DNA from: an uncultured Gammaproteobacteria bacterium
Lineage (GTDB): Bacteria > Pseudomonadota > Gammaproteobacteria > PS1 > Pseudothioglobaceae
Length of the DNA: 42,763 bases
Assembly: GCA_937899995.1 (NCBI GenBank)
Contig: CALCCK010000015.1
Location: 1-42,763 of the forward strand
Reading direction: 5' to 3'
Shown in pieces: positions 24,342-24,577 of the stretch. The notes below the pieces were generated by a model. It was not told the origin of the DNA. It saw nothing but the letters and a program-made list of their open reading frames with translations, and made no database searches. Numbering within the stretch: position 1 is the first letter of the stretch; the number at the start of each line of letters is the position of its first letter. The translations under genes and the position numbers were made by a program.

Positions 24342-24369
24342 TTGTGTATTGCAATTATTTAGATATAAT
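24342..24369 (+). promoter_or_regulatory. Promoter of glnK-amtB leader
   Basis: TTGTGT at 24342-24347 and a perfect TATAAT at 24364-24369 are 16 bp apart. The expected start, near 24377, falls just before the first hairpin at 24382, so the transcript begins with the regulatory RNA. Confidence 0.65.
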
Positions 24370-24381
24370 TTGAACTAGTTA

Positions 24382-24465
24382 TTTCCTAAAGATGGGAAAA
24401 GAACACAGAACATTGACGTTTATTTAAGCTTTTGTAATAAGAAGCTGAAGTAAACGTTTTTTTTT
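24382..24465 (+). promoter_or_regulatory. ANTAR-type attenuator, unit 1 of the glnK leader
   Basis: P1 (24382-24399) is TTTCCT / GGGAAA around loop AAAGAT (A1, G4). P2 (24408-24421) is GAAC / GTTT around loop ATTGAC (A1, G4). The terminator pairs 24416-24431 with 24442-24457 (15 of 16 positions), has a 10-nt loop and ends in nine T (24457-24465). P2's 3' arm is the start of the terminator's 5' arm, so the two folds exclude each other. This is the arrangement bound by ANTAR proteins, which stabilise P1-P2 and let transcription pass. Confidence 0.82.
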
Positions 24466-24468
24466 GCT

Positions 24469-24553
24469 AATCTCAAAGATGGGGTTGTGGCAATTGGTAT
24501 AGAGGCCGGTAGTTGAGTTTGTATTTTTACGAACACAATTATTGGCCTTTTTT
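24469..24553 (+). promoter_or_regulatory. ANTAR-type attenuator, unit 2 of the glnK leader
   Basis: P1 (24469-24486) is AATCTC / GGGGTT with the same loop AAAGAT as unit 1. P2 (24493-24510) is ATTGGT / GCCGGT around loop ATAGAG (A1, G4). The terminator pairs 24503-24521 with 24530-24548 (18 of 19, several G-U) and ends in six T plus a second T-run. P2 and the terminator share 24503-24510. The unit ends 12 nt before the glnK ribosome site (AAGGAG). Two complete units in series would give two termination checkpoints. Confidence 0.85.
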
Positions 24554-24577
24554 GTTTTTAAAATAAGGAGAAGTTAC

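Follow-up and report, generated by a model that had tools for sequence, protein, structure and literature searches.

The closest described systems are the attenuators controlled by the ANTAR proteins EutV (eut), NasR (nasF) and AmiR (amiE), in which, as set out in PMC3369931, two hairpins termed P1 and P2 carry hexanucleotide loops whose first base is A (A1) and whose fourth is G (G4), the linker between them falls in a 5–12-nt range (documented for the eut leaders) and P2 overlaps a terminator. That 2012 study already places genes for P-II and ammonium transporters under ANTAR control. It also counts 13 attenuators among six transcription units of Desulfotomaculum acetoxidans, so that a transcript with more than one attenuator is not without precedent. 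A second point of reference is the NasS–NasT system of Paracoccus and others (PMC3795266), where a protein with receiver and ANTAR domains exerts control by binding leader RNA. Tandem pseudo-cooperative riboswitches, for their part, place two similar checkpoints, each with an expression platform, in series on one leader, from which a steeper response is expected (PMC9481103).

Here we describe a locus in which these features come together, located in a window of 42,763 nucleotides (the whole stretch of DNA analysed; all coordinates are those of the window unless a leader or locus identifier is given). The host genome, of 1.24 Mb, belongs to the Thioglobaceae (SUP05), and its nearest named relatives are Ca. 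Thioglobus, Thiodubiliella, Ruthia, Vesicomyosocius and SUP05 assemblies. Members of this family are abundant marine sulfur oxidisers and symbionts of mussels and clams. We are confident, if short of certain, that the glnK–amtB leader of this organism consists of two ANTAR transcription attenuators in series, probably controlled by the ANTAR protein encoded behind amtB.

Results

Two attenuator units precede glnK–amtB

The leader (24376–24554, forward strand) holds two P1–P2–terminator units in series, at the place where an earlier sequence-only reading had proposed them. In unit 1, the P1 hairpin (24377–24404) presents the loop AAAGAT (24388–24393) on a core stem (24382–24387/24394–24399) with a basal GUU/AAC extension, the P2 hairpin (24408–24421) has the hexaloop ATTGAC (24412–24417), and an intrinsic terminator with a T9 tail extends over 24416–24465 (hairpin 24416–24457). 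Unit 2 repeats this order with a P1 hairpin (24469–24486) bearing the hexaloop AAAGAT (24475–24480), a P2 hairpin (24495–24508) bearing ATAGAG (24499–24504) and an intrinsic terminator with a T6 tail (24503–24553; hairpin 24503–24548). All four loops are hexanucleotides with A1 and G4, exactly as first read, and the 8-nt linker between P1 and P2 in each unit falls inside the range given for the eut leaders in PMC3369931. The tails had also been described correctly, but the pair counts of 15/16 and 18/19 then assigned to the terminators were slightly low, since 17 of 18 positions pair in terminator 1 and 20 of 21 in terminator 2. The bases that P2 and terminator had been said to share are the 3′ arms of P2 (24418–24421 and 24505–24508), which lie inside the 5′ arms of the terminators and make the two structures mutually exclusive in either unit. 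Apart from the agreement of their loops, the units have little sequence in common, again in line with what had been claimed.

A mechanical scan of both strands of the window for P1, P2 and an overlapping terminator returned exactly these two units, and the composite occurred zero times in 20 Markov-shuffled windows. Fold z-scores were −5.6 and −7.0 for the two units and −6.2 for the whole leader. At gathering thresholds, Rfam matched only tRNAs in the window. Upstream of unit 1 we recognized a putative sigma-70-type promoter (24342–24369) with the −35 box TTGTGT (24342–24347), a 16-nt spacer and the −10 box TATAAT (24364–24369), the last of which is kept in nearly all aligned leaders of relatives; transcription would be expected to start at about 24376–24378. 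Downstream follow glnK, encoding the P-II regulator (24578–24925, forward strand, PF00543), and amtB, encoding the ammonium transporter (24933–26153, forward strand, PF00909). An 11-codon frame starting at ATG 24392 was considered as a leader peptide and rejected, as most relatives have no ATG there. Together with the presence of an ANTAR protein gene in the genome (26236–26820), the loops, the linkers and the P2/terminator overlap in both units make up every feature of this class that can be examined by computation, and judged by its sequence the leader belongs to the ANTAR attenuators.

Predicted folding showed the two states that such a switch would require: RNA cut after P2 folds into P1 and P2, and RNA extending through the terminator folds into P1 and the terminator. 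The same folds bear on the idea that the terminated leader RNA acts mainly in trans by titrating the ANTAR protein, for which the EutX and Rli55 RNAs of Enterococcus and Listeria offer a precedent and which would be served by the short terminated RNAs, P1 hairpins retained, that the promoter should yield. We regard this as very unlikely to be the main role, because the terminated form is predicted to use up P2 in the terminator, breaking the dual hairpin, and because the elements stand directly before genes throughout the regulon described below.

Conservation and covariation in the Thioglobaceae

We aligned 62 glnK leaders of the family, 44 forming a main set and 18 being of the Pseudothioglobus type. 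By inspection, 60 of them retain the tandem arrangement. One exception (L035) has an unrelated leader with neither unit; the other (L072, genome G070), from a symbiont of the Ruthia/Vesicomyosocius group, has lost unit 1 together with the promoter and kept unit 2, and the doubling is hence not indispensable. Terminator 1 is shortened in a few further leaders (L044, L047).

Across 35 leaders, 88.8% of cells were paired in the P1-plus-terminator structure, against at most 55.7% when partners were displaced by one, two or three columns. For the P1–P2 core, examined over 28 units that represent three leader types, the corresponding values were 94.7% and 61.4%. Such comparisons are biased towards the undisplaced version, since the window itself supplied the sequence behind the model structures. 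Changes on both sides were seen in 28 of 49 pairs over the 35 leaders, and the P1 stem of unit 1 has covariation support, as have the two terminators. The pairs of the basal GUU/AAC extension are kept in 30–35 of these 35 leaders, and A1 and G4 are invariant in both loops of unit 1. The presence of the doubling throughout the family, with such strong covariation, argues that the doubled leader is ancestral to the Thioglobaceae and has been maintained by selection rather than arising as a recent copy, which bears out the earlier suggestion of selected structure and not a recent copy.

The conserved context also speaks to whether the first hairpin might simply be the terminator of the upstream gene 23384, leaving the second as the sole regulatory element. 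Terminator 1 does lie about 100 nt past the stop codon of that gene, but a conserved promoter intervenes between gene 23384 and unit 1, unit 1 has a conserved P1 and P2 of its own and is found in Pseudothioglobus leaders, and the doubled arrangement turns up again in front of unrelated genes; we find this explanation scarcely credible.

The two units have not been preserved alike. In about 25 of the 44 main-set leaders the P1 loop of unit 2 has 5 nt with G at position 3, a change with no parallel in unit 1, and unit-2 loops are degenerate in several leaders of clam symbionts (L059–L062). Unit 2 of the pentaloop lineages thereby departs from a canonical ANTAR site, and to judge from its loop it may be the weaker site there. 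Taken with the invariant loops of unit 1, this could mean that a single unit, probably unit 1, is the working ANTAR switch and that unit 2 serves mainly against leak, as an attenuator that is plain or under weak control. We consider this unlikely, though a serious contender, given that both units are canonical in the window, that the canonical hexaloops of unit 2, which several close relatives share, are retained in Pseudothioglobus-type leaders, and that the P2 loop and terminator of unit 2 are conserved among relatives; furthermore, a strong terminator without antitermination would shut the genes off permanently. Two ANTAR-controlled attenuators in series thus remain our preferred reading of the leader.

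An orphan ANTAR protein is encoded behind amtB

Directly behind glnK–amtB, on the same strand, lies a gene (26236–26820) for a response regulator with a receiver domain (PF00072) and an ANTAR domain (PF03861), the architecture of NasT. The genome encodes no other ANTAR protein. The product was found in 47 of 49 good family genomes and matches PDB entries 1s8n and 6wsh (Rv1626 and EutV). Its receiver lacks the phosphoacceptor Asp: Asn occupies the phosphosite in all 53 family members, against Asp in 10 of the 11 homologues that come from elsewhere. No PF13379 match that would point to a NasS-like nitrate-sensor partner was found in this genome, and elsewhere in the family there were a few borderline matches (best 7e-6). 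By sequence, the protein is an orphan NasT-like antiterminator, predicted to be unphosphorylatable. With Asn at the phosphosite and no NasS-like sensor found, the activating signal has to reach the protein in some other way. The genome encodes GlnD, which makes uridylylation of P-II likely, and we mention direct contact of P-II with the ANTAR protein as an idea only. A strong intrinsic terminator (about 26181–26207) separates the ANTAR gene from amtB, and cotranscription is therefore not implied by their adjacency.

Further elements in the genome and the family

A covariance model of the whole leader and a smaller core model were used to look for further leaders in the genome. With the whole-leader model, a second doubled leader was found before a gene for a NarK-type nitrate/nitrite transporter (L190, 1501–1695, minus strand), whose identity was checked by profile. 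The same model matched two single units. One, before a porin-like gene, is in L191; the other precedes gene 23384, in the interval that separates it from the DNA ligase gene (23266–23345, forward strand), and has the P2 loop ATAGAA, an overlapping terminator and the P1 loop GAAGTT (AAAGTT in congeners). This attenuator is seen in congeners and is absent from the other genera checked; gene 23384 itself gave a weak match to YkuI_C. A single dual hairpin (17426–17466, forward strand; loops AACGGC and ATAGTT), matched by the core model, precedes the second P-II/amtB operon, glnB–amtB2 (17530–19165). Its P1 and P2 are conserved in relatives and were included in the 28-unit core set, but the short hairpin downstream does not overlap P2, and the mechanism may differ there. 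Neither of these two single units of the window had figured in the earlier observation. An ANTAR-like motif between atpI and atpB (L198, about 1501–1545) was set aside as probably due to chance, as it has no terminator and its P2 lies near the atpB start.

In a survey of 83 family genomes, doubled leaders were found before a gene for a NirB-like flavoprotein (L216–L229, L238, L239, L251 and L252, many with canonical unit-2 hexaloops), before serB and before a urtA-like gene. Genes preceded by a single unit were serC, that for a class I aldolase and those for porins. The gene names in this survey were read by eye from translations. One leader of a urtA-like gene (L233, 530–731) has two near-identical P2–terminator copies and looks recently duplicated. 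Searching 369 genomes of the class for doubled leaders with the whole-leader model, which is tuned to the family and was applied with strict filters that distant doubled leaders could escape, returned, besides family members, a single hit, and that a weak one (L255). It stands ahead of a gene whose product is a putative nitrate-type ABC binding protein, and a NasT-like gene lies upstream. Among phage-borne relatives of glnK, the motif was found in none of 25 viral loci.

Discussion

In the mechanism that we propose, polymerase would start at the sigma-70-type promoter and produce P1 and P2 of unit 1, whereupon the active NasT-like protein would bind both hexaloops, hold P2 and block terminator 1; without active protein, transcription would stop near 24465. 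The same decision would be repeated at unit 2, with a stop near 24553, so that only transcripts passing both units would reach glnK–amtB. Binding of the leader RNA and antitermination by the protein are predicted here from sequence, and the gene content suggests that the response would be on under nitrogen shortage. If each terminator leaked a few per cent, the combined leak would fall far below one per cent. For full expression, both terminators would have to be passed, much as in tandem riboswitches that have two platforms (PMC9481103). By this analogy the doubling may multiply tightness, giving the sharper response or lower leak that had been suggested at the outset.

Several properties set the locus apart from the systems that it resembles. 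It shares with the ANTAR attenuators of PMC3369931 their hairpin features and their placement before nitrogen genes, including those for P-II and ammonium transporters, but unlike EutV/eut, NasR/nasF and AmiR/amiE as presented there, two full units in series are here the rule of a family. Compared with NasS–NasT (PMC3795266), the domain architecture and the predicted control through leader RNA are alike, yet no NasS-like protein was detected, the phosphosite is Asn and not Asp, and the target is glnK–amtB with a wider nitrogen regulon. The sensor, moreover, would be a protein and not a ligand-binding RNA as in the tandem riboswitches. Both checkpoints lie in one leader of about 180 nt. In Bacillus subtilis pyr and E. 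coli bgl, one RNA-binding protein (PyrR and BglG, respectively) likewise acts at several terminators of an operon, but those terminators are spread between genes.

Sigma-54 was not detected in this genome, nor in most of the family. Control of glnK–amtB is usually exerted through an NtrC/sigma-54 promoter, which would thus be unavailable here, and ANTAR attenuation probably stands in for it in the control of nitrogen scavenging. More tentatively, and with appreciable doubt, we suggest that in the Thioglobaceae a NasT-like antiterminator that has lost both phosphosite and NasS could have taken over from NtrC/sigma-54 as the general regulator of nitrogen genes. A new protein contact, perhaps with P-II (GlnK/GlnB) itself, would switch it, and at the genes under the tightest control it would act by way of doubled attenuators.

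ANTAR control in SUP05 was nowhere described in the literature searched, although the supplementary tables of PMC3369931 may list some of the sites, and within that scope the family-wide doubled layout, the SUP05 regulon and the orphan, unphosphorylatable regulator seem to be new. If our interpretation is true, the occurrence of doubled and single leaders within one genome provides a natural experiment on the contribution of a second attenuator under protein control, and the control of ammonium, nitrite and nitrate uptake in these bacteria would be readable from the genome as a regulon that operates at the RNA level without sigma-54.
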